62,459 nucleotides of DNA, from IMG/VR virus record IMGVR_UViG_3300025864_000016, positions 1 to 62,459 of that record; one strand, 5' to 3'. The notes beneath the pieces are model-generated. The model saw only the letters and a list, made by a program, of their open reading frames with translations, was not told where the DNA came from and searched no databases. The position numbers and the translations under genes are program-made. How positions within the stretch are numbered: the stretch's first letter is position 1; the number at the start of each line of letters is the position of its first letter. Shown piece after piece: positions 16,562-62,459 of this stretch. Source of the stretch: a virus.

Positions 16562-16884
16562 GAGTCCCCCCTCATTCGCTCCTCGGCCTGCGCCAAGTTG
16601 TACAGTGCGTCCACGTGTCCAAATGCGATCATTACAGCTTCAACGCGCAATGCCTGCCGAAAGTGAAAGGCACGGTCTTTCTGGTATTCCTCGCACTCTC
16701 GCGTCTTCCCCACAAGTGCCGCCGTCAGCTCCGCCTGCGAGTCAAGCAGCAGCTTTATCAGCTCCTGCTGGTCTTTGTCGTTGCAGGCATCGCATACGCC
16801 GGACTTGGAATCATGTGCCATTGACTGGCCGCAGACAGGACAGGCGCACTGCCAAGTGTCGTACTTTTGTTCTTCTTTATCCAC
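16558..16884 (-). CDS. Zinc-ribbon plus coiled-coil small protein, GTG start
   Basis: This 108-residue protein begins at a GTG with GGAGGGAA upstream. An N-terminal zinc ribbon is clear: C-x-C-P-x-C-G then CDAC (about residues 13-36). A charged helix follows. Its ribosome site lies inside the last codons of homing-like copy F, which suggests F was inserted exactly before this gene. Confidence 0.75.
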   Translation of the reverse strand: MDKEEQKYDTWQCACPVCGQSMAHDSKSGVCDACNDKDQQELIKLLLDSQAELTAALVGKTRECEEYQKDRAFHFRQALRVEAVMIAFGHVDALYNLAQAEERMRGDS

Positions 16885-17596
16885 AAATATTCCCTCCTCT
16901 TTTTTTCATATGTCTAGCAGGTTTTGTTATTGCTTCTTCGGGGGACATACCGCTTTTAAGCCTATCCCGCAAAGTGCCATAACTAACTACGCAGCGATAA
17001 TCACCTACCCATTCTGCTATACTTTTTGTTTCTCCAAATGCGGTCAGTAGGTGATTTCTTCGCGTATTCCTGGCTTGCTGTTTACGCGTCGCCCATCGAC
17101 AATTTGGCGGTTCGTAGTTACCGTCGTTATTTATGCGGTCTAATGTAAGGCTATCGGAATACCCGTGAGACAGCGCCCATTCTTTGAATGGAGGATATTC
17201 TCTCCATTCATTACAAACGGTAATTCCGCGACCACCATGATTGCAATAATCTTTTTTCTTTTCGTTGTAACAACGACCAAACATTCCCTGCCAGCAATCA
17301 AATAGCCTCGCGTATTCGCTGCTACGCACACTATCTCCGTGCGTAGTATGGCGTTTACTGGTCATTTCGGCACAATAGCATCCACATGACTTTATTCGTC
17401 CTCTAACTAAATGACTACCTAATACGCAACAAGTGTTTCCACAATCACAAGTAGCGACATAGTAGTGCATTGTCTGACCATTGACCTTTTTAATCACGTG
17501 TGAAGTCACCACCAACCTGTCAAATCTCATTCCCGCTGGTATGTTTGGAACAGTAAAATTAACGCCGTCTCTTTCGTGGACTATACTTTTACTCAT
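16877..17596 (-). CDS. Homing-endonuclease-like protein, copy F
   Basis: This 239-residue family member has CDCGN, KSCGCY, FGRCYN, HGGRGITVCNEW, LDRINNDGNYEP-NCRW and FGETKSIAEW blocks. It has no private promoter or leader hairpin. It starts in an ATGA overlap with the upstream gene and its last codons (KKRGGNICG) carry the GGAGG used by the downstream gene. Its N terminus has the SI....DGVN-F signature of copies A, C, D and E. Confidence 0.87.
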   Translation of the reverse strand: MSKSIVHERDGVNFTVPNIPAGMRFDRLVVTSHVIKKVNGQTMHYYVATCDCGNTCCVLGSHLVRGRIKSCGCYCAEMTSKRHTTHGDSVRSSEYARLFDCWQGMFGRCYNEKKKDYCNHGGRGITVCNEWREYPPFKEWALSHGYSDSLTLDRINNDGNYEPPNCRWATRKQQARNTRRNHLLTAFGETKSIAEWVGDYRCVVSYGTLRDRLKSGMSPEEAITKPARHMKKRGGNICG

Positions 17597-20220: not shown

Positions 20221-20922
20221 TTAACTACCTCCTTTGGTTTTGCTACGCTGGCTAGGTTTAGTTATTGCCAGTTCTGCTTCCATACCGCTTTTTAGTCTGT
20301 GCCATAAAGCCATATAGCCAACAACACACCGACTATCATCCGCCCATTCCGCGAGGCACTTGGTTTCACCAAAGGCAGTAATGAGGAGATTATCTCGCCT
20401 GTTTCTGTTCTGCTCTTTGTACGTTGCGAATCGACAGTTCGATGGCTCATAATCCCCGCTTTCGTTGTTGGGGTAACGGTCTAATGTAAGGTGCTTCTCG
20501 TATCCATTTGCAAGTGCCCATTCTTTGAACGGTGGGTACGTTCGCCACTCGTTGCATACAGTGATTCCCCTGCCGCCATGAGTGTCGTAGCCGGTGGCCT
20601 TTTCGTTGTAACAACGGCTCATCATACTTACCCAGCAATCAAATAATCTATTGTATGCACTACCTATCCTACTATCGCCGTGTGTAGTATTGCACGCTTT
20701 GACTACTTCACGCCGATAGCACCCACACGAAGTAGAAGCGCCACTAACTAAGCTACAACTAAGCACACGGCGTGTGTTTCCGCAATCACAGATGACAACG
20801 TAGTAATGCATTTTTTGTCCTTTGATTGTTTCTACCTCATGCTCTACGACCGCCCACCTGCCGAATTTACTCCCGGCAGGAATATCGCACCCACGTGGCT
20901 TGACGATTTCTTTCTTACTCAT
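20221..20922 (-). CDS. Homing-endonuclease-like protein, copy G
   Basis: This 233-residue family member has CDCGN, STSCGCY, SRCYN, HGGRGITVCNEW, LDRYPN..GDYEP-NCRF and FGETKCLAEW blocks. It has no private leader; AAAGGGGAT precedes the ATG. Its N terminus (RGC-IP-G-KFGR) matches copy B, not the DGVN type. NCRF replaces NCRW. Its end (KTKGGS) supplies the ribosome site of the thioredoxin-like gene. Confidence 0.87.
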   Translation of the reverse strand: MSKKEIVKPRGCDIPAGSKFGRWAVVEHEVETIKGQKMHYYVVICDCGNTRRVLSCSLVSGASTSCGCYRREVVKACNTTHGDSRIGSAYNRLFDCWVSMMSRCYNEKATGYDTHGGRGITVCNEWRTYPPFKEWALANGYEKHLTLDRYPNNESGDYEPSNCRFATYKEQNRNRRDNLLITAFGETKCLAEWADDSRCVVGYMALWHRLKSGMEAELAITKPSQRSKTKGGS

Positions 20923-24681: not shown

Positions 24682-26094
24682 CTACATCCGGTCGTCTCTG
24701 GCCATAAAAGTGTTCTTCTCGTCTGCGAACCAGAGCGGTACCCGGCCCGGCGGGCCATTTCTTTGTTTGGCAATAATTAAATCGCAAAGGTGCAAGTCTT
24801 CTTGCTTGTTGTATATCCACGGCCTGTGTAGGAACATCGTTAAATCGCTATCGTAAAACAGCGCGTTGGTTTCGCCTATGTCCGAATATATCGGATCTTT
24901 GTTACTCCGGCCATCAGCAGCGCGGTTCAGACTAGTGACAATCACGACGGGAATATCAAGCTCAACGGCAATGTCCTTTAGCCGGTGAGAGATATTCGCG
25001 AAGTCCAAACGGGCGTTACTGGTTGGGTTATCGGCGCACATCAACTGGAAGTAGTCAATCACCAGCAGGTCTAGCCCCACCTCGTTCTTCTGTTTGCGCG
25101 CTAACTGCAGCACCTTGTTTGGGGTCAGTAGCTTCGGACGCCCGACGTACAACGGCAAGCCCTTTAGCTCATCAATCGCATAGACAAGCTGGTCGCGCAT
25201 GGGCCGGTCAAGGTCACGGGCATTGTCTTTCAACTCATCCCAATTAGCGTCCCGGAAACGGGTATCTCGCATATGCTTGTTTTCTAGCGTGGTAGCCATT
25301 GCGATTAATGCCCGACGCGCTATGCTTCGTTCCCCCATTTCGCTTGATTGTATCTGCACCTTGTATCCAGCTCGCGCGGCAGGTAATGCGATATTGTTCA
25401 GCGCGAATTGTGACTTGCCCACATTGGACAACGCGCCAATCAGAATCATATCCGAGTTTTGCCAGCCTAGCGTCAGGTGATCCAAGTAGCCAAGCCCGGT
25501 CATAATCCCCGGAGGTGTGCCGTTCATCACCTGGTCATCAAGTTTGTCCAGCACTTCAGCGGCATAGTGCGCCATAGGCAACGTGCTTTCAGCCGGGGAA
25601 CTTGCGGTCATTATCCGGTCTAGCTCCGCTTGCGATACTCGCACTATCTCTTCGGCGGTAGCATCTACAGAATAGCAGGCCATCATCACCCTATCGGCGT
25701 TTTTAATGAGTTCCCGAAGTGAGTATTTTGCCTTGATAATTTCCGAATAGTGTTTCACCCCTCCAGCGGTTGGGCAAGCATTCATTATCGTCATCAGGTA
25801 TAGGGTACCGCCGACCATCTCTAATTGTGTTCCTGATTCCAGGTCACGCGGGTTAGCGGCCTTTCCTTTGAGATATTCCCCTAGTGTTATGAGGTCTACC
25901 GGGTCTTTTTTGTCGTACAATGCGACAATAGCCTCATAGATAATTTTATGCGTTTCTCTGTAGAAATATTCTGGCCGCATAATCTCAACAGCCTTCTCGA
26001 TTGCCTCGATCTCTAACAAGCAAGCGCCTAATAGAGCCTGTTCGGTTTCTATCGCATTTGGAGGTATCCGCTCAAGCAAATTATCTGGTAGCAT
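24682..26094 (-). CDS. dnaB: Replicative DNA helicase, DnaB type
   Basis: This 470-residue protein has the two-domain DnaB plan: N-terminal helical domain (PPNAIETEQALLG start) and C-terminal RecA-like ATPase. Walker A is G-ALSNVGKS-Q at about 220-229, Walker B is LLVIDYFQ at about 345-352, and the later segment VVIVTSLNR and GETNALFYDSD matches the helicase family. It unwinds DNA at the phage fork as a hexamer. Upstream lies the replisome-organiser-type gene; the starts overlap. Confidence 0.96.
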   Translation of the reverse strand: MLPDNLLERIPPNAIETEQALLGACLLEIEAIEKAVEIMRPEYFYRETHKIIYEAIVALYDKKDPVDLITLGEYLKGKAANPRDLESGTQLEMVGGTLYLMTIMNACPTAGGVKHYSEIIKAKYSLRELIKNADRVMMACYSVDATAEEIVRVSQAELDRIMTASSPAESTLPMAHYAAEVLDKLDDQVMNGTPPGIMTGLGYLDHLTLGWQNSDMILIGALSNVGKSQFALNNIALPAARAGYKVQIQSSEMGERSIARRALIAMATTLENKHMRDTRFRDANWDELKDNARDLDRPMRDQLVYAIDELKGLPLYVGRPKLLTPNKVLQLARKQKNEVGLDLLVIDYFQLMCADNPTSNARLDFANISHRLKDIAVELDIPVVIVTSLNRAADGRSNKDPIYSDIGETNALFYDSDLTMFLHRPWIYNKQEDLHLCDLIIAKQRNGPPGRVPLWFADEKNTFMARDDRM

Positions 26095-27118
26095 TGTTTA
26101 CCCTCGCAGCAGCGGCGGCACGTTTGGCGGCCAGCTCTATCTGGTATTCTTCATAACCTTCGGGCAGTGGGGTGTAGGGTATTGCGTCGGGGTGCAGCGC
26201 GTATGGGGTGTATTGCCCCTGCGTTGTTTGCGAGGTGGCGTTATCGCGTCGCTTCAGTTCGTCAAGTCCGGCATAATCTTTCATATGACTTTCCCATAGT
26301 CTATTCGTCGGATTCAAAAACTTCTCACAGTACATCAGGTAAGTATTCGTCGAGTTGCAGGCATTGACATAGCATTTTGCAAGGTACGCAAGGTCGTCGT
26401 GCGAGATTAGTTTCTTGTGCATAATGGCCTTGTAATACTTGAGAGATATGGCCTTACTCCCTCGGTGGTCACCACTGAAACGGTAAGCCTTCCAGATTTC
26501 CTTGTCAAAGCGTTCTTCCAGTTCAGCGTTTTTATCCACAGCAGGTACATCATCTACCAGCAAAGAATCAAACGCTGGTTCCGAAGAACCGGCAAGAGTA
26601 TTACTTACCTCTTCTAACCTCACCTCACCTCTACTAACCTTACCTAAAGGAAGTACAGAATCAGTATTCGTACTATTTGCGCACGTATCCTGTACGTATC
26701 CTGTACTAATATCTTTTTCTGGTGTTTCCACGCCTGCGGCAAGGTCTTGAGCTAACTTTCTAGCAGCTCTTATAGCAGCAGCGCGCTGGCGATTTTCTTC
26801 TATTTTCTCCAGATACTTGCCCCCATACTCTGCGAAATCATGCAAAAAGGTGCCTTTTTCTGTATGGTCTAAAAAACCAGAATCTACCATAGCGTCAAAG
26901 AAAAGCTGGTGGTCACCTTCCCACCCTGCAGCACGGGCTACCACGGCAGACGACTTTCCCGTCAAGTCCCCATGAGTACCCTTTGTGTGGTCTAAAGCCC
27001 ACGCCCACAAAAAGAACAAGTTGCCCGACGCATGGGCAGGTGATACGTCCAGTTTAGCGGCAAGTGTAAATAGCTTGTCGTTGTCTTTTAGGTCTTGATA
27101 CATTGAGACATATGCCAT
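26081..27118 (-). CDS. Replisome-organiser-type replication protein
   Basis: This 345-residue protein begins with a winged-helix-like region (residues 1-110) typical of phage replication initiators of the Lin1244/Lin1753 type, then a charged linker and a C-terminal DnaD-like helical region. The start at 27118 follows AAAGGAG. It sits directly upstream of dnaB, so it probably loads the helicase at the origin. Exact family is inferred. Confidence 0.75.
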   Translation of the reverse strand: MAYVSMYQDLKDNDKLFTLAAKLDVSPAHASGNLFFLWAWALDHTKGTHGDLTGKSSAVVARAAGWEGDHQLFFDAMVDSGFLDHTEKGTFLHDFAEYGGKYLEKIEENRQRAAAIRAARKLAQDLAAGVETPEKDISTGYVQDTCANSTNTDSVLPLGKVSRGEVRLEEVSNTLAGSSEPAFDSLLVDDVPAVDKNAELEERFDKEIWKAYRFSGDHRGSKAISLKYYKAIMHKKLISHDDLAYLAKCYVNACNSTNTYLMYCEKFLNPTNRLWESHMKDYAGLDELKRRDNATSQTTQGQYTPYALHPDAIPYTPLPEGYEEYQIELAAKRAAAAARVNNATR

Positions 27119-27147
27119 ATCAGTTTCTCCTTTGGTTTCCATTATTA

Positions 27148-27756: not shown

Positions 27757-28308
27757 CTACTTCGCACGTCGGCCTACACGCGGTTTCCTTGGCGCAGATG
27801 GGGCTTTGTAGCCTTTAGCTATCCTCGCGGCTTTGCGCGCAGCCTTGGCGTCCAGAAGTACCTTTTTGTAGGGCAGCAGGTTCGGGATAGATTCCAAAGA
27901 CTCAATCCCAAAAAACAGTGCCCGCATCACGTCCATGCAGTAAGGCATGAATTTGTTAATCATGTCATCGTCAAAGAAGGCAGTAGTGTATCCAAGCCAA
28001 GCGTAGATGTTCCGGCACTCCCTGTCTGTGCCGTGTGAACCCCCGCCGGGTAACTTCGTGCCACCGTCCACTTCGACAATAATCTTCCGATCACGCCAGA
28101 TGAAGTCGCAGGAGTACCGACGCCCCTTTAGCGGTTTGCGTTGAATCTCTGGGGCCGGTATTTCTGGGCAAGACTCCTTCAATGCCTCCTCAAACGCCAG
28201 CTCAAGGTAGCTTCGTTTCTTATCGACATTCACCTCAATGGTAAACGCGGTTTCGCGCACGTTTTGCGGCGTTTCTACAACTTTCATTGACGATGTAGGT
28301 TTTCTCAC
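27757..28308 (-). CDS. Vsr/DUF559-like endonuclease-fold protein
   Basis: This 183-residue protein has the core of Vsr/DUF559 nucleases: YSCDFIWRDRKIIVEVDGG (metal-binding Asp and E-x-D), a HGTDREC-RN helix, and AWLGYTTAFFDDD. The C terminus is basic and Ala/Lys-rich. It overlaps copy B by ATGA, so a mobile gene sits directly upstream in the same transcript. Probably a DNA nuclease; substrate unknown. Confidence 0.75.
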   Translation of the reverse strand: MRKPTSSMKVVETPQNVRETAFTIEVNVDKKRSYLELAFEEALKESCPEIPAPEIQRKPLKGRRYSCDFIWRDRKIIVEVDGGTKLPGGGSHGTDRECRNIYAWLGYTTAFFDDDMINKFMPYCMDVMRALFFGIESLESIPNLLPYKKVLLDAKAARKAARIAKGYKAPSAPRKPRVGRRAK

Positions 28309-28994
28309 TTTGCCGCCCTCCCAGTTGGTTTCGTCATCGCTTCTTCCGAATCCATTCCAATCTTTATTCTATAACATAAAGTTTGACTAGTAACGACGCA
28401 CCGTTTATCCTCTACCCACGCAGCGATACACTTCGTTTCACTGAAGGCTGTAATGAGATGGTTATCACTTCTGTTTCTCTGTTGTTGCTTCATTGTGATC
28501 CACCTACAATTATTCGGTTCGTAATTGCCATCGTTGTTTGGGTAACGGTCAAGGGATAAGCCTTTTATGTATCCGTTAGCAAGCGCCCATTTTTTAAAGA
28601 CGGCACGGTCAGTTCTCCACTCGTCACAGACGATGATACCCCTTCCACCATAACGAAAGTAGTTTTTATTGTTTGTGTTGTAGCAACGTTGCATCATATC
28701 TGTCCATACACAACGTAAACGATAATATTCACTACCGAGTAGACTATCTCCATGTGTGGTACTTACTTCACGCTGATAACACCCACATGAAATGGTATGA
28801 CCACTGGCTAATTTCTGGCCTTCTACGCGGTATGTATTACCACAATCGCAGATGACAGTATAGAAATGCCTTATCTGTCCGTTAATTCTTTCGGCCACGT
28901 GCGCCGTGGTTGTTAATCGTCCGAGTTTCATCCCGATAGGAATGGCACACCCACGAACCTTGACGACAGGTGTAACTGTGGTTATAATGTTCAT
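28305..28994 (-). CDS. Homing-endonuclease-like protein, copy B
   Basis: This 229-residue family member has CDCGN, HTISCGCY, QRCYN, YGGRGIIVCDEW, LDRYPNNDGNYEP-NCRW and FSETKCIAAW blocks (Ser replaces Gly in FGETK). The ATG at 28994 is eight bases from GGAGG; a TTG at 29000 is too close. It has the full private leader at 28995-29070 and an N terminus (RGC-IP-G-KLGR) like copy G. It lacks its own terminator and is coupled to the Vsr-like gene. Confidence 0.87.
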   Translation of the reverse strand: MNIITTVTPVVKVRGCAIPIGMKLGRLTTTAHVAERINGQIRHFYTVICDCGNTYRVEGQKLASGHTISCGCYQREVSTTHGDSLLGSEYYRLRCVWTDMMQRCYNTNNKNYFRYGGRGIIVCDEWRTDRAVFKKWALANGYIKGLSLDRYPNNDGNYEPNNCRWITMKQQQRNRSDNHLITAFSETKCIAAWVEDKRCVVTSQTLCYRIKIGMDSEEAMTKPTGRAAK

Positions 28995-29070
28995 TGTCAA
29001 CTCCTCCTTTTAGGTGTTGTCCGGCCTCCAACATTTGGCTATGTGTGGAGGCATTTCTGTAAGTATACCA
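28995..29070 (-). promoter_or_regulatory. Cassette leader B: extended -10 promoter, stem-loop, RBS
   Basis: Minus strand: TGG-TATACT (29062-29070), stem GCCTCCA/TGGAGGC (29024-29030 with 29046-29052), spacer ACAACACCT, GGAGG (29003-29007), start 28994. Distance from -10 to start is 67 nt, as in the other four leaders. It lies inside the 3' part of the small gene at 29010-29129. Confidence 0.85.
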
Positions 29071-33592: not shown

Positions 33593-34213
33593 ATGAACGC
33601 AAATGCTACTTTAATACCTGCGAGTGAAAACTCCATGAGCAAGGGCAAACCAGATTCATTGTTGCGCCCGCTATGCGATGACTACTACCGGAAGTTTAAG
33701 GCCATTGATATGCTCAAGGTTCAGCTTGCTGACCTTGATACTATTATCCCCCACCTCAAGGAAGAGGCCTGGCAACGGTCACAAATCAACTCATACGGTA
33801 TCGCTGACTATAGCGGAGAGGTTCACGGTAGCGGCGTGTCTGACCGCGTAGCAACCGACGCCACGCGCAACAGGGACACCGTCGAAAGCAAGGCATTGTG
33901 TGCCGCGTATGAGCAGCAGGCATATTGTCACCGCACAATCAACGAGACGCTAAAGACAGTGCGCCCTTTTGAACAGGCATTTAACGCATTACCCCGCCTC
34001 GATAAACGAATCATAGAGCTACGCTATGGCCAGTCCATGCAATTAGAGGCACTGGTAGAGGCCATCTACATTGAGGAGCAGGCATTTGATCGGAAGGGCA
34101 TGGATATTAGCACGGTATGCCTGCATATTCGCAAAATGAACCGTGAGTTCCCCCTCGATGTCTCTTATTTTACCCAAATATCTGATAAAAACGATAACAA
34201 TTATCGCAATTAA
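33593..34213 (+). CDS. Sigma-like/ArpU-type transcription regulator
   Basis: This 206-residue protein follows AAAGGAG. Residues about 125-190 resemble sigma region 4 or ArpU-type phage late regulators: LDKRIIELRYGQS then a helix-turn-helix and a final H-I-R-K-M-N-R-E-F. The N-terminal half is helical. It is transcribed divergently from recombination genes and is a good candidate for switching on late genes; this is inference. Confidence 0.7.
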   Translation: MNANATLIPASENSMSKGKPDSLLRPLCDDYYRKFKAIDMLKVQLADLDTIIPHLKEEAWQRSQINSYGIADYSGEVHGSGVSDRVATDATRNRDTVESKALCAAYEQQAYCHRTINETLKTVRPFEQAFNALPRLDKRIIELRYGQSMQLEALVEAIYIEEQAFDRKGMDISTVCLHIRKMNREFPLDVSYFTQISDKNDNNYRN

Positions 34214-37700: not shown

Positions 37701-37864
37701 GTAAGTAAGTAGCAAACAAGTGTACTATTTTTCATGCTTGTTTTTCGCACCCGACAACTCCACAAATTCGCATCATCACCATATAACCAAGTAACTATAT
37801 AACCACATAGTCATACTATACTACTTGTTAATAACTATACCCGTTGTCAAATTTAGGTAACTCA
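37701..37864. other. Divergent AT-rich control region
   Basis: This gap between the minus promoter at 37672 and the plus gene at 37865 contains two direct repeats ATATAACCA (37781-37789 and 37797-37805) and a TATACT word at 37817. I see no gene. It may hold the plus promoter and regulator sites. Confidence 0.5.
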
Positions 37865-38443
37865 ATGCCACAATGCACCGCAAAATCTAAACGAACACAT
37901 AACAGATGTACCGCGAATGCAATGCATGGGAAAACCGTTTGCTACCATCATGGAGGTAAATCACAAGGCGGTGTTTTGGCTCCAGCATACAAAGGCAAAG
38001 GCCGATCTAAATACCTCCCCACCAGGTTAGCGGACGCCTATCAGCAAGCGCTAAACGATCCCGATTTAGTCTCGTTGAGTAGCGATATAGCCTTAATGGA
38101 CGTTAGACTCGGCGAGGTATTAGCGAAGCTAGATACCGGCGAGGCTGGCGCAATTTGGGATGACCTGCAGGAGGCTTGCCGGGAAGGAAGCATTGATCGG
38201 ATAGCCGGCCTAGTAGCGAGGGGTGCGAATGAATACCGGCAGTGGGAAGACATTTTGCCCTTGATTGAGCAGAGGCGGAAGCTGGTGGAGAGCGAGAGCA
38301 AAAGAACGCAGGTGTTGAACCAGAATGTGCCCGCTGAGAAGAATCTGTTGCTGATGGGGGTGATCCTGCAGAGTTTACGAACCCATGCACCGAGGGAAGT
38401 GCAGGAGGCTGTGGCAAATGATCTGAAGGCTTTGATTTATTAA
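37865..38443 (+). CDS. Zinc-motif HGGK protein, possible small terminase or DNA-binding factor
   Basis: This 192-residue protein opens with C-x(10-12)-C and a later C-Y-H-HGGK segment (residues 4-32), a pattern seen at the start of several phage DNA-binding proteins found near packaging genes. The rest is helical with YLP-RL-DAY--AL--PDL-SL and a Gln/Arg-rich C terminus. The ATG at 37865 has AGGT upstream; a TTG at 37844 is an alternative. Small terminase is only a possibility. Confidence 0.6.
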   Translation: MPQCTAKSKRTHNRCTANAMHGKTVCYHHGGKSQGGVLAPAYKGKGRSKYLPTRLADAYQQALNDPDLVSLSSDIALMDVRLGEVLAKLDTGEAGAIWDDLQEACREGSIDRIAGLVARGANEYRQWEDILPLIEQRRKLVESESKRTQVLNQNVPAEKNLLLMGVILQSLRTHAPREVQEAVANDLKALIY

Positions 38444-38535
38444 GAGCTGTAGCAAAGTGAACTTTGCCCTTAGTATATATATACTATATACGCGTGCGCG
38501 CGTTTCCTATTCGCGTATGTGCGCGGGGGTAGATT

Positions 38536-38563
38536 AAGACGCCTTTTTTGGTCAAAAAGTCTT
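38536..38563 (+). terminator. Hairpin after HGGK gene
   Basis: AAGAC (38536-38540) pairs with GTCTT (38559-38563) and inner T and A runs can pair, leaving a small loop. It follows an unusual alternating stretch (TATATATATAC near 38478 and GCGTGCGCGCG near 38494). Confidence 0.5.
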
Positions 38564-38566
38564 AAA

Positions 38567-38659
38567 TTACCATTAGGCGTGAAGTGATAGCACGAAATTA
38601 CCAAACAGGCGTGAAAGTATGTGCGTGTTTACCTAACAGGGCTGTAACTTGTGTGTGCT
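38567..38659. repeat. Three 31-bp iterons
   Basis: TTACC recurs at 38567, 38598 and 38629, exactly 31 bases apart. Units 1 and 2 share TTACCA and AGGCGTGAA; unit 3 keeps TTACC-AACAGG. 31 bp is about three turns of DNA, so proteins would bind one face. With the adjacent alternating AT and GC tracts this is a candidate replication origin or regulator array. Confidence 0.7.
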
Positions 38660-38898
38660 GGCCGGGCTGCGATTTCGCGGTCTGTAAGTGGTTGTTTAGA
38701 TGCTACCCAAAACTTGTAATTACGCAGGTGAACCGGATGACGGGGTGAAGTATTAACAAGGAATCCCCGGCTGTCGCAGAAGCACCGGAAGCGGTGTATC
38801 TCCTGCAGGTTATCCCATGCATATACATAATTTAGGTCTGACTCTGTATAGCGGTCTGTGTCGTATCCGGTAAACCCGGTTGAATAAAACGGCCCCAT
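38629..38898 (-). CDS. Small hypothetical protein
   Basis: This 89-residue protein starts MGPFYST after AGAGGTAAC. It is rich in aromatic and Asp/Arg residues with a C-F-C segment. Its last codons lie in the third iteron. Function unknown. Confidence 0.65.
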   Translation of the reverse strand: MGPFYSTGFTGYDTDRYTESDLNYVYAWDNLQEIHRFRCFCDSRGFLVNTSPRHPVHLRNYKFWVASKQPLTDREIAARPAHTSYSPVR

Positions 38899-39436: not shown

Positions 39437-39838
39437 CTAACAATCTGCGGCAGGCCGGGAATATGTCGTAATTTTATCTGTATGGAAACTGTAATCCCCG
39501 TTGGTTTGCCGCAGACGGTGCAGACTTGCATAATGCATATTAGCACCGGTCAAGTCTGCACCGCGCATATCGCAGAAGTCTAATGTAGCGAATTCCAGAT
39601 TAGCACCGCGCATATCTGCACCACGAAAGTCTGCACCGGTACACCGCTGGCCGCGAAGGTCTACACCACGCAGGTCTGCACCGCTAAAGTCAATGCTGTA
39701 TAAATCAGTGCGCGCTGCACGAAAGTACAATCCACGCAAATCTTTACCAGACAGGTCAGCTTTAGCTGATTGGTTGCGGATATCTGCACAGTACAATTGA
39801 TGTGTGTGTAATACCGCGTCTAATTCTTCTTGTGTCAT
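39437..39838 (-). CDS. Pentapeptide repeat protein
   Basis: This 133-residue protein has about fifteen consecutive A(D/N)LxX-type pentapeptides from residue 25 to 110 (for example ADLSG, DLRGV, ADFRG, ANLEF, ADLTG), which fold into a right-handed beta-helix. Some family members, such as Qnr and MfpA, mimic DNA and inhibit gyrase. Here a host-gyrase or DNA-mimic role is only a possibility. Confidence 0.9.
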   Translation of the reverse strand: MTQEELDAVLHTHQLYCADIRNQSAKADLSGKDLRGLYFRAARTDLYSIDFSGADLRGVDLRGQRCTGADFRGADMRGANLEFATLDFCDMRGADLTGANMHYASLHRLRQTNGDYSFHTDKITTYSRPAADC

Positions 39839-40578: not shown

Positions 40579-40755
40579 CTATATAGACAAGCGCGCGTCA
40601 GGACACGGCACCACGCAGGTGTCCTTGTCGTAGTCAGACAATGCCCGGCGATAATTCGGGCAGGTGCTACAACCAACGATACAACGATACAACTCATACG
40701 CGACCGCGTGCGGTATCGGCGCCGGGTGTGTTTGCGGGTACTGATCTTCTCTCAT
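40579..40755 (-). CDS. 58-residue Cys-rich protein, first gene of operon
   Basis: Starts MREDQY after GGGAGGATA. Four to five cysteines (C-x3-C-x2-C, then C-x3-C) suggest a zinc site. It is first after the promoter at 40801. Function unknown. Confidence 0.67.
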   Translation of the reverse strand: MREDQYPQTHPAPIPHAVAYELYRCIVGCSTCPNYRRALSDYDKDTCVVPCPDARLSI

Positions 40756-40800
40756 GATATCCTCCCTTTCCTCGTGCACAGGATTGTGCTTACAAGGTCT

Positions 40801-40829
40801 ATTATACAGATAGCGGATTAGCCTGTCAA
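40801..40829 (-). promoter_or_regulatory. Early promoter of 40.8-38.6 kb operon
   Basis: Minus strand: TTGACA (40824-40829), 17-base spacer, TATAAT (40801-40806), with ACTTAC upstream. This is a perfect consensus promoter. Confidence 0.93.
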
Positions 40830-41448
40830 GTAAGTAGTAGGAATATGATGTAGTATTTATCACACAATTGCAAAGTATTTTCCGAGGTAGCAATATGCAA
40901 GGATAAGATCATCATCATCATCATGCTGGTAGCAGGGAATTCACCCCGTCAATTCAACAGATAGGCGCAAAAGGTGTAAATCAAATTGACTCATATGTGA
41001 AAACAAGGCAAAAACACGGCATTGTCAAGCTAATACAGGGATATGACTAGTGGCAGAATAGCACTTGTGGCTTAGAAGGCCTTGCAGGTACCAACAAACG
41101 CATTTCCTGCAGCATGGTAGTGTAACTCATTTTCAACAGGGTAGCATTAACAGGGTATCATATAACGCAGCTGGTAGCTGGTAGCGTAACTCCCGATATC
41201 GCAGGTAGCAGGAGCTGGCAAAGAGCAGTCAAACAGCGGTTTGCATAGCGACGAATAGCAAACAAAGCGACGGCAACGAATACAAACAGACAGACGCGAA
41301 AAGATGTTCGTGAAAAACGGTTTATTTATTAACGATTCGAACGCGCGAAACGAAGTTACCACCTTGCCTAACATTTTTTTCAATTTTTCGCAAAACCAAC
41401 TTTTGTGATAGCACCTATTTGCCTTAAAAATTTTTTTAGATTTTTAAC
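40830..41448. other. Gene-free region between early and late transcription
   Basis: About 620 bases without a convincing gene separate the divergent early promoter (40801) and the plus promoter (41449). It holds six copies of GGTAGC on the plus strand (40886, 40928, 41140, 41173, 41180, 41204), a CAT/ATC triplet run near 40908-40925, an imperfect direct repeat ACGAATA(G)CAAACA near 41250-41290, and A/T tracts near 41370-41445. This fits a packaging, origin or control locus. Confidence 0.6.
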
Positions 41449-41477
41449 TTGACAAACAAACTTCTTTCTGTTATGAT
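41449..41477 (+). promoter_or_regulatory. Plus-strand promoter opening the rightward block
   Basis: TTGACA (41449-41454), 17-base spacer, TATGAT (41472-41477), with A/T tracts upstream that could act as an UP element. It drives the genes from 41498. Confidence 0.9.
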
Positions 41478-41497
41478 TCAATCGAAAGGGGGTGGAT

Positions 41498-42124: not shown

Positions 42125-42730
42125 ATGGCGAAATTAGAAAAAGAAGTGCCGTCGATTTTTGTCGGTTCACTTGAGGACTTCTTAAGCCTGATGAAGAGCG
42201 GTTTCAAGGACGTTGGCACAGAAGCCGACTTCCAGAAAGCCTGCGAAGTTGACGCAGATAGAATGTGCGATGAGTGTCTTTGTTGCAGTTGTTCCGAGAA
42301 GAGTATGTTAGAGTGCTGCAGAAATATATGCTTGGAGTGCGCAAAGCACACGGCCAGTTCTACAGAACATTGCACAAACTATAAACATATAGCCTGCGAC
42401 GAGTCTGAGGATGACGAACGTTGCATTGCTTGCGGCAACCTGCTTCCGGCCAGCGCGGAGACCTCGTACTGCTATATTTGCGTAAAGAACGGTGTGCGCG
42501 ACCGTATGGAGGCGCTTTACTGCGACAACGCGAAACTCGGTTCGCAACTTGAGATGGCAAACGCGAGGGTGAAAGAGTTGATGGGCGGACTTGATTGGGC
42601 AAGTAATTTGCTTGAGGACGCGGAAGCGATAATGGACAAACTCACTGCTAAAATCGAGAAACGAGATACTAAAATAGCAAAGCTTAAGAAGCGTCTTCGT
42701 GGGCAAGCGCCTACGGAGGTTGCGCTATGA
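42125..42730 (+). CDS. Cys-rich plus coiled-coil protein
   Basis: This 201-residue protein starts MAKLEKE after AAGGGGG. Residues 45-130 contain about sixteen cysteines in C-x2-C groups (CDEC-LCC-C; CC--ICLEC; C-x2-C; C-x2-C), a probable multi-zinc domain, followed by a long charged coiled coil with a basic end. The frame upstream of 42125 is not supported. Confidence 0.72.
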   Translation: MAKLEKEVPSIFVGSLEDFLSLMKSGFKDVGTEADFQKACEVDADRMCDECLCCSCSEKSMLECCRNICLECAKHTASSTEHCTNYKHIACDESEDDERCIACGNLLPASAETSYCYICVKNGVRDRMEALYCDNAKLGSQLEMANARVKELMGGLDWASNLLEDAEAIMDKLTAKIEKRDTKIAKLKKRLRGQAPTEVAL

Positions 42731-45308: not shown

Positions 45309-45995
45309 TTGAAAAGTATAACACGAGTCAAAGACGGAGTCAACTACAGCGTCCCAAACATTCCCATTGGAATGAAGTGGGGCAGGCTTACAGTGCAACA
45401 TCATGCACCAGAAAAGGTCAAAGGGCGATTGCGACATTTCTACATTTGCATTTGCGAGTGTGGAAAGACATGTCGTGTGGTCGGGGAATGTTTGATTTCT
45501 GGTCATACGATTTCATGCGGATGTTATCATGACGAAGTAAGGCTTGTTTGCACAACGACGCATGGCGACAGTCGGCCAGGCAGTAAGTACAAAAGACTAT
45601 TTGAGAGCTGGGGGGATATGATCCGGCGCTGCGAAAAAGAAAAGCGTAAGGATTATCACCATTACGGTGGTAGGGGAATTTTTGTCTGTAATGAGTGGAA
45701 AGATTATCAGACATTTAAAGATTGGGCACTGGCTAATGGGTATAATGAAAAACTATCGCTAGATAGAATTAACAACGACCTAGGCTATAGCCCAAGTAAT
45801 TGCAAATATTCAACAGCAAAACAACAGGCTAGAAATAGGCGTAACAATTATTTACTAACCGCTTTCGATGAAACTAAAAGTATCGCAGAGTGGGTAGAAG
45901 ATAGCCGATGTAGTGTAAACTACAGCACTGTACATGCCAGAGCGACAAGGCTCAAATGGCCCCACGAAAAAGCAATTACGGAACCCGGAAGGTAA
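45309..45995 (+). CDS. Homing-endonuclease-like protein, copy C (TTG start)
   Basis: This 228-residue family member starts at TTG six bases after GGAGG. It has CECGK, HTISCGCY, IRRCEK (CYN is lost), YGGRGIFVCNEW, LDRINND-GYSPSNCKY and FDETKSIAEW blocks. Several core positions differ (NCKY, FDETK), so it may have relaxed constraint. It lies between the 44847 gene and the large terminase and has its own promoter and terminator. Confidence 0.86.
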   Translation: MKSITRVKDGVNYSVPNIPIGMKWGRLTVQHHAPEKVKGRLRHFYICICECGKTCRVVGECLISGHTISCGCYHDEVRLVCTTTHGDSRPGSKYKRLFESWGDMIRRCEKEKRKDYHHYGGRGIFVCNEWKDYQTFKDWALANGYNEKLSLDRINNDLGYSPSNCKYSTAKQQARNRRNNYLLTAFDETKSIAEWVEDSRCSVNYSTVHARATRLKWPHEKAITEPGR

Positions 45996-57321: not shown

Positions 57322-57387
57322 ATAGAAAGTGCCCACCGCAAAGACTAATTGCGGTGGGCGTATGAAATACCTAGAAGGAGGTATCGC
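57309..57387 (+). promoter_or_regulatory. Cassette leader E
   Basis: TTGCAC 17 bases upstream, TGG-TATACT (57309-57317), an 11-bp perfect stem GCCCACCGCAA/TTGCGGTGGGC (57331-57341 with 57349-57359), then GTATGAAATACC, in which ATACC can pair with GGTAT over GGAGG (57377-57381). Start 57388 is 71 nt from the -10. A nine-codon frame starts at 57362 and ends in an ATGA overlap with the gene. Confidence 0.88.
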
Positions 57388-58074
57388 ATGAGACCTAGTA
57401 TAGCACGAGTCAAAGACGGAGTCAACTACACGACGGACAACATGCCCGTAGGTATGGTTTGGAATTGGCTCACAGTCAAAGAGCATGAAGTAGAGAGAAT
57501 CAAGGGACATTTAAGGCATTTCTATATTTGCGTCTGCGAATGTGGAAACATTTGCCGCGTAGAAGGCAATAATTTAATCAGTGGCCATACCAAGTCATGC
57601 GGGTGTTATCGGCGCGAGGTAATTACTACGCACGGCGACCGTGTGGTGGGTAGCGAGTATTTTAGACTGCATCAGTGCTGGGCAGCTATGATGAATCGTT
57701 GCTACAACAAAAACAGTGACAGTTACCATACTCATGGCGGGCGCGGTATTACAGTTTGTGTGGCATGGAGAGATAGCTCGGTATTCAAGGAATGGTCTCT
57801 CGCTAATGGCTATTCGGATAAACTCACCCTTGATAGAGAAAATAACGAAAGTGGCAACTATGAACCATCCAACTGCAGGTGGGCTACAGCGAAGCAACAG
57901 GCGAGGAATCGACGGGATAATCACATGATTACTGCTTTCGGAGAAACCAAGTGTATCGCTGAATGGGCTGAAGACGTCCGCTGCGTTGTTGCTGCTGGCA
58001 CTTTGCGTATGAGACTAAAGCGCGGCATGGAACCCGAAGAAGCGATGACTAAATATAGCAGGCAGAGCAAATAG
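57388..58074 (+). CDS. Homing-endonuclease-like protein, copy E
   Basis: This 228-residue family member has CECGN, HTKSCGCY, NRCYN, HGGRGITVCVAW, LDRENNESGNYEP-NCRW and FGETKCIAEW blocks and a GMEPEEAMTK tail. Starting further upstream at 57349 would read through the leader hairpin, so 57388 after GGAGG is the true start. It lies between the chaperone and the tape measure. Confidence 0.88.
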   Translation: MRPSIARVKDGVNYTTDNMPVGMVWNWLTVKEHEVERIKGHLRHFYICVCECGNICRVEGNNLISGHTKSCGCYRREVITTHGDRVVGSEYFRLHQCWAAMMNRCYNKNSDSYHTHGGRGITVCVAWRDSSVFKEWSLANGYSDKLTLDRENNESGNYEPSNCRWATAKQQARNRRDNHMITAFGETKCIAEWAEDVRCVVAAGTLRMRLKRGMEPEEAMTKYSRQSK

Positions 58075-58127: not shown

Positions 58128-58167
58128 ATGCGGCGCGTTTGCCTCAAAATACCCAAAGGGGGAATTT

Positions 58168-61100
58168 ATGGCTGAAGATGGTATGGACGTAGGAGGCGGA
58201 GGAATTTACGTTGAAATCGGTGCGACCCTCATAAAATTGCAAGAAGACCTCAAAGTTGCCAAAGGAATGGTTGAGAAGTTTGCTGCTGACGTATCTACAG
58301 ACGTAGTAACAATTCGCACTAATCCGGCTATGCTAGAGCAGTTGGAGGCAAAAATTGCCGCGCTCGAAGCGCAGGTAAAGACGCTCTCGGCACAGGTAGT
58401 TACCCCGCAAGTCAACATGGCGGAGTTGACCGCACTTCGCGCCGAGTTTACCGCACTGCAAGCGCAGATGGCCGCGTTGTCGGCAAAACCCGTTGTTATT
58501 GACGTGGTAACAAAGACCACTTCCGTTGGGGCAGGGGCGGCAGTAGTCAGTGGCAAGCCAATGCCACAACCTAGCGCAAAACTTCGCGAGTTGAATGAAT
58601 GGAACTCTAGAGCTATCGCCAATGGTGGCGAAGCAATTTATACAAAAGACAATAGTGCTGTCTATGCAAAAGAGCAAGCAAAGTATGAAGCCGCACTAGC
58701 CAAAAGAGCTGCTGCTGACGAAAGAGCTGCTGCAAAAATAGTAGCGGCACAAGCAAAAGCTGACGCAGCCCTTGATTCTCAATATGCAAAGTGGACAGCA
58801 AAACAAGAAAAATGGGTAGCTCAAAAAGAAGCGGGAGAACAAAAAGTCGCTATTGCATCACAGACCGCTCGTGAAGAAGAAGCCGCTGGGCTTGCTAAAG
58901 TTGAGCAGATGAACGCGCAACTTGAAGCTTCTGATACCGCTCGCATGGAAAAGAGCGTTGCCAATGTCCGTAAACTCGAAGCGGTGCAGGCAGACGCTTT
59001 AGCAAAGCAATTAGCGGCACAGGCCAAACTTGACGCAGCAACAGTTGTCGCTAACGCAAAACTCGCTGCCCGTGTAGAAGCGTTCAATATCCAAAAGGTA
59101 GGCGTCAATGGTGCGCCAATATTTTCAGCAGCAGATGCACCCGCGCTCAATGCGGAAATGGCAAACCTAAAAGAGCAGCAGGCTTTACTTTCTGCACAAC
59201 GCGGTGAGTTAGTAGCGCAGTCAGCGGCATGGAAGGAAATTGACGCCGAAGTAATGGCCGTTGGTGAGCGAATCAAGGCACTTTCGCCCGCGCAAGCATT
59301 TGTTAATGGCCTCGTCAAAGAGCAGTTAGCATTAGAAAAGGCAGTAGCCACCGCAGCTACAGCAAAGACCAAAGAAGGCACTGCCCTCGCTGCTCAAAAC
59401 ATCAGAAATGAAGCGCAAACTTACGCGCAAAACATAACAGGACTGCAGGGCGTTACCCCCGGCGGAGTATTCGCTAACACCTTTACAATTCAGAAGAGCA
59501 TGGTTCTTATGTCTGCGGAGTTGCAGAAGCTCACCATCGACTTGAATAATATGGGTCCGAGTAATGCCGCTTACGAGATGACCAAGGCGAAAATCGACGC
59601 AATTGCTGGCCGTCTTCGGGCACTCCGGCAGGCCGCTGGTGAGATGAAAGCCGCGATGCAGCAGCTCGGAAGCACGTTGCAGGGCATTGGCATGGGCCTT
59701 GTAATGGCCGGTGCTGTAGGCGCAGCAACTATATTCGGCATTGGCAAAATTCAGAGTCACATCGACCAGACAAGGATTTCTCTCGCATCGTTATTCGGCA
59801 GTATGGATGCTGGTCTCGCGTTTATGAAGAAACTACGTGACTTCAGCGAGAATACTCCGTTCAAGTTTGATATTCTATTGAATGGCGCAAAGGAACTGAA
59901 GGCGTTTGGATATTCGGCAGAAGAACTAATCCCGACGATGCAGATAATCGCCGACAAGGTAGCACAGATTGGCGCTGACCCCGAAATGATGCAGCGAGTT
60001 ATCACCATTTTCGGTAAGATTCGCAATGAAGGCAAAATAATGGGGCGCGAGTTGCTACAACTCGAAAAAGCCAATATCCCCGTTATCAAGTACCTGACTG
60101 AATATACCGGCGAATCATGGGAATCGTTATCAAAGCGGATGCGAAACCCGGATATGACAATATCAGCGGACGTGGCCTTGCCCGCGTTTACGCAGGGGAT
60201 GAAGAAGGACTCCAGTGGTGTAGCAAAAGCACAGGAAATGGAATCTCTGTCAGGCAAGCTTTCTAACGCGGCAACTAACTTCCAGATGGCGATCACTAAA
60301 CTCGGCGACGCTATGAAGGGTAATCTGATGAAGATTATCGACTGGGGCGTTAGCGTGCTTCATGCAATCGAAAACCTGTCTCCGGCAACGCAGAAGGCGA
60401 TTGGAGATTTCCTGTTGTTCGGTTCGGCGGGCGCTGTTGTGACCGGCGTACTTGCATTGCTCGCGTCTGGAATTATAAGCATTGATGCTAAATGGGGGCA
60501 GTTCGCAGGGGTACTGGCAAAGATTCCGAATATTGCGGTAGTAGGCCCGATAGTGGCACTCATAGCCGCATTCGTGGGCTTGAGCCTTGCTACCGAGGAT
60601 GGCCGCAAAAACCTGCAAGCTATCGGGGCTAACCTGATGGCCGTCGGCAAAAACTTCATGGACTTCGCGAAGCAAGTCTGGAGTGCCGTAGCGGGTGCCG
60701 GGGGAATCTTACAGCCGGTCATTCAGATGATTGGTGGGTTCCTTAAGTCTATCACCGGATTACTCGCTGCAAACGGAATTGGGGCAACAATACTGGCGTT
60801 TGCTTTATCGTTCAAGGCTTTGTCAGCAGTGTTACCTGTGGTAGTTACCGGCGTGGCCACACTGAGCCGGTCATTATCCGCACTTGGTTTTGGGTTTGCC
60901 TTAATCAAGGCCGAAGCAGTTGCGGCAGCAGCAGGAGCAACAGGGTTTGCGGCAGCAACAAATATAGCTTCCGTATCAGTCGCAGGACTGTCTACAGCAA
61001 TCAAAGCCGCCTTTGCTACAAATCCGTTGGGGTGGATTATTTTAGGATTATCCGCTGTTGTCGCTGGTACTATGGCATGGAATAATGCTAATGAGTACGC

Positions 61101-62459
61101 GGCAAATGCTGGTGTTCGCAAGGCTACAGAGGCCGTACAGTCGCAGGAAGCGGCACTTGTAGCACTAAAGGGCAAACAGGCCGATGAAGTTACCCAGATA
61201 ACAAAGAACATCGACACCTACGAGAAGCTGAAAAAAGCACAAGTTGGCACAGGCACAGTATCGGGGGAATTAAAAACGGTACAAGATGCCCTTGCGGCAA
61301 GTTTCAAGTACATGGCCGAACAGGTCGGGGATTCATCGACTACATGGGACGAGAATGTTGACTCTGTTAAAAAGATGACAACGCAGTATCTGGAGATGAA
61401 TAAGGCTATTGAAGAGTCGAATATTAAGATACTGGAGCAAAAGGCAGCAGTAGCTGAAGCGTCATTAGACAAAACGTTGAATGCTTATCTAAAACCTGGT
61501 GAAATCGCAGGTGCAAGAAAAACCCTAGATTCGGGTGGAACAATCCAACCTACTTCTTCCGATCAAGCATGGCGAGTGAGACTATACAATTCGGGACGCG
61601 GAAGATGGGATAAGACAAATCAAACAAGTCCAGACATGACTGAGGAAATGAATGCCGCCAGTGTGGCTCGTAACCAGGCACAGCTAGACCTGACTAAAGC
61701 GAAGAACACTTCAGCATTGAAAGAGACCACTCCCGATAAAGTCGGTTTTGGCGATGTCAAAAAAGCGGATGCCGACGCGAAGGCACTTGAGAAAATCAAT
61801 GATGAATATGCGCGAAGCGTAGCGGATACGGCGCAGACTGTCTCACAACTCCAGTATGAAGCATCAAAGGAAACCGACGACATCAAGCGTGCAGAGTTGC
61901 AGATGAAGGTGTCAGAGAATCAATTCGAGGCAACTCTAAATGAAAAATACGTCACTGAGCAACGGTCACAATATGCTACCCTTCTGAGCATGAAAGAGGA
62001 AGACCGCGATGCTCAGCGCGACATCATGGACAAGGTGCTTGGTGACCTAAACTCCAACAACAAGCGGAAACTTGACGCCCAGAAGTGGGCTGACGCGCAA
62101 GCAATCAAGGCCATGGAGAACTACCGGAAGGCGCAGGCAGAGGATGCCGCATTAGCAGATACTCGCGCTGCAAATGCCCGTAATAAAGCGAATGCAGATA
62201 GTGACCGAATCCTTGCGCAGAAAAAACAAGCTGCCAAAATCCAGTCTGAGACCAATGGCACTTCTAGTGGTATGGTACAGGCAGTCATAGGTAGTGCTGA
62301 ACAAGACGCACTAGAGGCAATAAAAAAGAGAGAAGATGAAGAGGTGCTTGCCGCGTTTAGAATTGCTGCTAAACAATTGGACATAGACAAAGCATCACAA
62401 GCAGTGAAGGACAAACTCTTTTGGGAAGCTGACGCGAAATTGCAAGGCAATGCAGACCG
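58168..62459 (+). CDS. Tape measure protein, N-terminal part (continues at 1)
   Basis: The gene starts at ATG 58168 after AAAGGGGG and stays open to the right end. It continues in frame at position 3 of the window and ends at 1430, giving about 1,864 residues. It has long Ala/Glu/Lys/Gln coiled coils (residues 40-480), a hydrophobic region with several helices near 740-980 that could enter the host membrane, and further coiled coil. A segment TRISLASLFGSMDAGLAFMK is characteristic of tape measures. Confidence 0.95.
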   Translation, partial: MAEDGMDVGGGGIYVEIGATLIKLQEDLKVAKGMVEKFAADVSTDVVTIRTNPAMLEQLEAKIAALEAQVKTLSAQVVTPQVNMAELTALRAEFTALQAQMAALSAKPVVIDVVTKTTSVGAGAAVVSGKPMPQPSAKLRELNEWNSRAIANGGEAIYTKDNSAVYAKEQAKYEAALAKRAAADERAAAKIVAAQAKADAALDSQYAKWTAKQEKWVAQKEAGEQKVAIASQTAREEEAAGLAKVEQMNAQLEASDTARMEKSVANVRKLEAVQADALAKQLAAQAKLDAATVVANAKLAARVEAFNIQKVGVNGAPIFSAADAPALNAEMANLKEQQALLSAQRGELVAQSAAWKEIDAEVMAVGERIKALSPAQAFVNGLVKEQLALEKAVATAATAKTKEGTALAAQNIRNEAQTYAQNITGLQGVTPGGVFANTFTIQKSMVLMSAELQKLTIDLNNMGPSNAAYEMTKAKIDAIAGRLRALRQAAGEMKAAMQQLGSTLQGIGMGLVMAGAVGAATIFGIGKIQSHIDQTRISLASLFGSMDAGLAFMKKLRDFSENTPFKFDILLNGAKELKAFGYSAEELIPTMQIIADKVAQIGADPEMMQRVITIFGKIRNEGKIMGRELLQLEKANIPVIKYLTEYTGESWESLSKRMRNPDMTISADVALPAFTQGMKKDSSGVAKAQEMESLSGKLSNAATNFQMAITKLGDAMKGNLMKIIDWGVSVLHAIENLSPATQKAIGDFLLFGSAGAVVTGVLALLASGIISIDAKWGQFAGVLAKIPNIAVVGPIVALIAAFVGLSLATEDGRKNLQAIGANLMAVGKNFMDFAKQVWSAVAGAGGILQPVIQMIGGFLKSITGLLAANGIGATILAFALSFKALSAVLPVVVTGVATLSRSLSALGFGFALIKAEAVAAAAGATGFAAATNIASVSVAGLSTAIKAAFATNPLGWIILGLSAVVAGTMAWNNANEYAANAGVRKATEAVQSQEAALVALKGKQADEVTQITKNIDTYEKLKKAQVGTGTVSGELKTVQDALAASFKYMAEQVGDSSTTWDENVDSVKKMTTQYLEMNKAIEESNIKILEQKAAVAEASLDKTLNAYLKPGEIAGARKTLDSGGTIQPTSSDQAWRVRLYNSGRGRWDKTNQTSPDMTEEMNAASVARNQAQLDLTKAKNTSALKETTPDKVGFGDVKKADADAKALEKINDEYARSVADTAQTVSQLQYEASKETDDIKRAELQMKVSENQFEATLNEKYVTEQRSQYATLLSMKEEDRDAQRDIMDKVLGDLNSNNKRKLDAQKWADAQAIKAMENYRKAQAEDAALADTRAANARNKANADSDRILAQKKQAAKIQSETNGTSSGMVQAVIGSAEQDALEAIKKREDEEVLAAFRIAAKQLDIDKASQAVKDKLFWEADAKLQGNAD

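Follow-up and report, generated by a model that had tools for sequence, protein, structure and literature searches.

A three-repeat array beside easily unwound DNA in a phage genome, probably a docking site for a packaging or genome-copying protein

The record analysed is a viral sequence of 62,459 bases, classed as linear, and the whole of it is referred to below as the window. The contig passes unbroken through the site of interest, which occupies the gap (38444-38628) between a rightward gene ending at 38443 and an ORF that converges on it, running leftward from 38898 to 38629 (Table 1). The rightward gene starts either with TTG at 37844 or with ATG just before 37868, and the N-terminus of its product is a cysteine/histidine HGG motif; we refer to it as the HGG gene. 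It ends 124 bp short of the first repeat. The segment 38444-38660 is noncoding and flanked by the two converging genes, and it has no Rfam match. The long open frame after the minus-strand ORF was rejected as evidence of coding. An 18-nt inverted match (94%) links 38156-38173 in the HGG gene with 38800-38817 in the converging ORF, where the two, on opposite strands, read WDDLQE and WDNLQE.

Table 1. Features at the array and at two rival sites in the window
Feature	Coordinates	Strand	Remarks
HGG gene, 191-aa protein, N-terminal zinc-ribbon/HGG domain	37868..38443	+	putative small terminase
Hairpin, 6-bp stem and 4-base loop	38452..38467	+	just past the plus-strand gene
Perfect AT palindrome, 16 bp	38471..38486		contains GTATATATATAC; the 20 bp of lowest stability in the window begin at 38471
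Alternating R/Y run, 19 bp	38485..38503		longest in the window; contains GCGTGCGCGCG; GC-rich, Z-DNA-prone
Second alternating R/Y run, 14 bp	38512..38525		partial palindrome
Inverted repeat (GGTA..TTAAGAC / GTCTTAA..TACC) around T6 and A5 tracts	38528..38571		predicted bend 38538-38558
Repeat copy 1, TTACC-ATT-AGGCGTGAA	38567..38583	+	26.5 bits
Repeat copy 2, TTACC-AAAC-AGGCGTGAA	38598..38615	+	26.5 bits
Repeat copy 3, TTACC-TAAC-AGGGCTGTA	38629..38646	+	22.1 bits
Converging orphan ORF, 89 aa	38629..38898	-	no family match
Repeats inside the initiator gene, rival origin place	26605..26720	-	perfect DnaA-box word TTATCCACA at 26532-26540
Six GGTAGC words, another rival site	40886..41209	+	followed after 160 bp by the AT-richest 100 bp (41369-41468)

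A sequence-only reading of this DNA had described three TTACC-led repeats exactly 31 bp apart. This spacing holds for the TTACC end (31 and 31 bp), but not for the second half of the repeat, where AGGCGTG is spaced by 32 and then 31 bp and has degenerated to AGGGCTG in copy 3. Once a one-base gap is allowed, the copies have the common core TTACC-N3/4-AGGCGTGAA, with copy 3, which runs into the stop codon and final codons of the leftward ORF, as the degenerate member. A two-part matrix scan of the window found this gapped core nowhere else, the next site scoring 14.6 bits. The gapped three-copy array scored 55, compared with a mean of 37 and a maximum of 48 in 300 local shuffles, and thus exceeded all 300. 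The three TTACC words alone are weak evidence, near chance, because equal-spaced 5-mer triplets (spacing 20-60) occur 11 times in the window, several of them being coding repeats, and 2.85 +/- 1.7 times in 60 shuffles, so that about three are expected.

The strength of the array was also compared with that of other periodic sequence. On the period-31 statistic, 61 start positions across the window also reach 55; the best 30 of these 61 fall in a pentapeptide-repeat gene (39.5-39.6 kb) and in a tape-measure-like frame (58.7 kb). Across periods of 15-45 the array ranks sixth (z 6.3), clusters at 41115 and 26663 are close (z 6.0 for each), and arrays of z >= 6.3 also turn up in bacterial DNA, where three stretches of 14-18 kb contain 3, 1 and 1 of them. 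We therefore take the array to be real, but its strength not to be extraordinary. A fourth, inverted copy near 38541-38557 scored 6.8 bits against a median best of 5.8 bits in random tiles, and was dropped. Of the other repetitive places, the pentapeptide-repeat protein gene (Pfam Pentapeptide) occupies 39437-39838, and the array at 41115, of period 32, lies together with the six GGTAGC words in a gap of 793 bp to which no genes are assigned (40698-41491). At 58147-62459 a plus-strand frame without stops, tape-measure-like by eye, is still open where the window ends; the minus-strand ORFs listed there are probably spurious.

The DNA between the HGG gene and the repeats is prone to unusual structure. 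The alternating AT and GC tracts that had been placed just before the repeats are indeed there, as GTATATATATAC at 38473-38484 and GCGTGCGCGCG at 38492-38502. A run as long as the 19-bp alternating one arose in 39 of 200 shuffles; taken together, alternating R/Y runs of at least 9 bp cover 66 of 200 bases here, against 31 at the next best place, and none of 200 shuffles reached 66. The hairpin was likewise borne out, with three perfect stems of at least 6 bp starting within 150 bp, the densest such cluster in the window. The claim of an easily melted region depends on scale: by stability parameters, the TA tract is the least stable DNA of the window over 20 bp, but the place ranks 14 over 50 bp and 90 over 100 bp, and the least stable 100 bp are at 37764, just upstream of the HGG gene. 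By wedge (bend) parameters, no other place in the window is predicted to bend more over 21 bp than the inverted repeat around the T6 and A5 tracts, and only one does over 31 bp, but its 31-bp value was attained in 26 of 40 shuffled windows. Folding of the segment gave a z of -2.7 as DNA, whilst as RNA it was ordinary (-0.4 on the plus strand, -1.55 on the minus strand), which suggests that the element is a site in DNA and not an RNA. Judged by sequence, the best explanation of segment 38444-38660 is that it is a candidate double-stranded DNA recognition site, neither coding nor an RNA element. The three-repeat array with its easily unwound DNA is probably a place where a phage protein for packaging or genome copying docks.

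Searches for relatives gave little with which to compare the site. No DNA match was found in phage records or plasmids, no other viral contig contained either of two exact 20-22-mers of the array site, and in no relative that was found is the site present, so that conservation of the core is without an example. One contig, L002, represents the same phage (100% over 15,276 bp) but starts at 42,217 and misses the site. Ten viral contigs carry a two-repeat pattern with TTACC spaced at 27-36 bp and no regular third copy; these look like chance. Relatives of the large terminase gave 80 viral loci kept of 171 found, and 20 genome loci. By tblastn, neither flanking gene occurs in any of 90 loci (the viral and pattern loci without L001 and L002), and the two flanking proteins have no relatives in viral contigs or phage records. 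For the HGG protein there were no relatives in the genome contigs searched. Amongst genomes, phrog_3678 matched in 1 of 274 and 3 of 299, the HGG protein itself in 4 of 398, and HGG_STG in 6 of 398, two of them above the cut-off. The HGG protein was not found in 36 viral records and 5 genomes with related large terminases, two sets in which the positive control was also silent. The initiator had no relatives in viral contigs and seven distant partial matches in phage records.

The HGG protein matches phrog_3678 via its first 30-odd residues. Against HGG_STG it scored 19.9 bits, under the 29-bit cut-off, and its structure model, with a pLDDT of 42.6, was too poor for a fold search. It is akin to small terminases at its N-terminus: all four of the bacterial-genome proteins with an HGG domain that were scanned with PHROGs match terminase-small-subunit families (L116, 9e-39; L118, 1.6e-24; L117, 9.5e-10; L115, 3.2e-4, the last confined to the zinc region). 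L115 resembles the HGG protein of the window over 128 aa (pairwise 7e-10), and the L116 gene overlaps a large terminase (Terminase_6N, 2.3e-11) directly after it. The scan left out L114, a phrog_3678 match; L119, L120 and L122 repeat L115, L116 and L117; L121 and L123 were discounted, by eye, as frames open by chance; and L124-L127 were judged by eye only, in the longer stretches L129, L134, L130 and L131. L129 and L131 contain further HGG-motif proteins, which are short and have other surroundings. In the closest full-length homologue, L128, the HGG gene (in a bacterial genome) lies by a large primase-like ORF and two tyrosine-recombinase-like ORFs, as judged by eye, and L128 is perhaps a phage-satellite-like element.

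Because the HGG neighbour shares its N-terminal domain with small terminases, packaging explains the site at least as well as replication does. We tentatively suggest that the array is a packaging recognition site (a pac, or the cosB part of a cos) bound by the putative HGG-type small terminase, and slightly prefer this to an origin. The three direct sites of 17-18 bp, about three helical turns apart, would face one side of the helix, where one phage DNA-binding protein, most likely the HGG gene product, may bind all three copies cooperatively; the adjoining bend, palindromes and unwindable tracts could then aid the wrapping or cutting of the DNA. Packaging would start from a place left of the late operon, which contains the genes for the large terminase, portal and head. 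Among the window ORFs scanned, none other was recognised as a small terminase. An HNH endonuclease gene immediately precedes the large terminase; it belongs to a family with at least four members in the window (16877-17596, 20221-20922, 28305-29000 and 45309-45995), and a further HNH-like ORF was seen by eye at 57349-58074. No small-terminase family matched the C-terminal part of the HGG protein, and comparing profiles of that part gave nothing significant (hhalign probability 1.6%). Relative to the HGG gene the array lies on the 3' side, and 7.6 kb with opposed genes separate it from the window's large terminase. Of the four HGG relatives scanned, only the one in L116 was found to lie beside a large terminase; by eye, none was seen in the longer stretches of the other three (L128, L132 and L133), nor is there an array near the HGG gene of L128. 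Our literature search on HGG zinc-ribbon small terminases found nothing about their DNA recognition, and if the array is a packaging site, it would be the first candidate target for small terminases with this N-terminus. As it stands, this stretch of about 200 bp is an ordinary candidate for a cis-acting site.

The sequence-only reading had instead proposed a replication origin. This is possible yet somewhat doubtful, and would most readily take the form of a second, late origin resembling SPP1 oriR, with the initiator binding the repeats, melting the TA tract and loading a DnaB-type helicase, and with the first origin lying within the initiator gene. Genes of the phage encode an initiator (the product of 26081-27142, which matches phrog_9474 at 9.2e-31) as well as DnaB, RecE/RecT and SSB. 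The array offers direct repeats about three helical turns apart that adjoin the window's least stable 20 bp, and cumulative G-C has its minimum near it, at 38,062. GC skew had been proposed as a check; the minimum agrees with an origin, but it is confounded with gene strand, since the early genes, mainly leftward, are succeeded at 38,062 by late genes that point rightward. Third-position skew of minus-strand genes, at -0.112 +/- 0.064 just right of the array and +0.045 to +0.072 at 29.9-36.9 kb, is also in favour, but that of plus-strand genes at 46-58 kb is negative and no simple two-arm pattern results. The initiator gene, said to be 11 kb away, is 11.9 kb from the array, which compares with 12-13 kb between the SPP1 origins. 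Against an origin, melting at the 50-100 bp scale is unremarkable, without an AT-rich stretch at the array, and a search that allowed one mismatch found no DnaA-like box between 33,093 and 42,798, hence none within 4 kb. DnaA boxes near iterons are common, though not required in every iteron origin. Local alignments of the array with the initiator gene and with the 41-kb gap stayed within background, with no significant motif common to the array and the initiator gene. Two further repeat clusters are roughly equal to the array in strength. The initiator gene, with repeats of its own (a 20-bp tandem repeat at 26607-26645 and an 11-bp tandem around 26680-26705) and the perfect TTATCCACA, is the more usual place for an origin; from these features, 26532-26720 is a good candidate for the main one. 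The small-terminase likeness of the HGG neighbour, left unconsidered in the sequence-only reading, also weighs against replication. If the array is an origin after all, it would be another case of the two-origin plan of SPP1. A single site used at both ends of the late cycle, with the HGG small terminase packaging on the repeats and the unwinding or Z-prone tract acting as a late origin or fork barrier, so that the switch to concatemers is coupled to the start of packaging, seems very improbable.

Outside packaging and replication, a regulatory or boundary element between the converging transcripts (an operator cluster, a barrier or a terminator region) would fit the converging genes and the hairpins, and operator-like words are likewise repeated in the gap at 40.7-41.5 kb, upstream of a promoter-like site. 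We consider it unlikely, as none of eight sigma-70-like sites at 37-42 kb and one of six terminator-like sites, a weak one at 38490-38503, fall inside the segment, both totals being at shuffle level; RNA folding is ordinary, and the motif is absent from the gaps that do contain promoters. The promoter-like site itself, TTGACA-17-TATGAT, lies in the 40698-41491 gap ahead of the late operon. A gene at 33593-34213 has a weak match to the transcriptional regulator phrog_36 and a marginal sigma-70 match; its product is possibly a late-gene regulator. Still less probable is that the segment has no conserved function and reflects simple-sequence drift in a slack intergenic gap. Slippage can create alternating tracts, arrays of this z are not rare in view of the three bacterial stretches, and no relative shows conservation, but drift would have to account for the same gapped core appearing three times, and nowhere else, with unusual DNA adjoining. 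Three further candidates were rejected. For an attP, there was no integrase match among the ORFs scanned, a set that excludes many small ORFs in a record that is perhaps incomplete. For type III antitoxin RNA repeats, the next assigned plus-strand gene (41492) lies beyond opposed genes and there was no RNA-structure signal. A telomere-resolvase site was dropped, the palindrome being only 16 bp and no such enzyme being matched.

The array can be set beside several known systems. In plasmid iteron origins, direct repeats near helical-multiple spacing lie beside a short AT tract. The array resembles them in both respects, but has no adjoining initiator gene, no DnaA box and only three copies. Of the two origins of Bacillus phage SPP1, one lies in the initiator gene and the other in noncoding DNA 12-13 kb from it; both consist of direct repeats and AT-rich DNA, and one initiator binds the repeats of both (PMC6316719, PMC3485210). 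Set against this oriL/oriR pair, the phage likewise has its own initiator and a DnaB-type helicase, with repeats within the initiator gene and, about 12 kb off, direct repeats in a noncoding gap; unlike SPP1, its two places have no common repeat, and a long AT-rich unwinding element is missing at the array.

For packaging, lambda cosB offers a comparison: its ~120 bp include a bend and three sites for the small terminase (PMC4669245). The array is similar to it in having three short sites within about 100-120 bp, bend-prone DNA and a putative small-terminase gene nearby. It differs in that its copies are all direct, whilst lambda R2 is inverted, and in lying 3' of the gene with the large terminase 7.6 kb away and no cosN or cosQ recognised. 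In SPP1 the pac comprises direct repeats, in three sets, at the gene for the small terminase (PMC4737164). The SF6 small terminase is of the helix-turn-helix type and the HGG protein of the zinc-ribbon type. The SPP1 repeats span the promoter and gene start whereas the array follows its gene, but direct repeats at a small-terminase gene, a putative one in the case of the array, are common to it and the pac of SPP1 and SF6.
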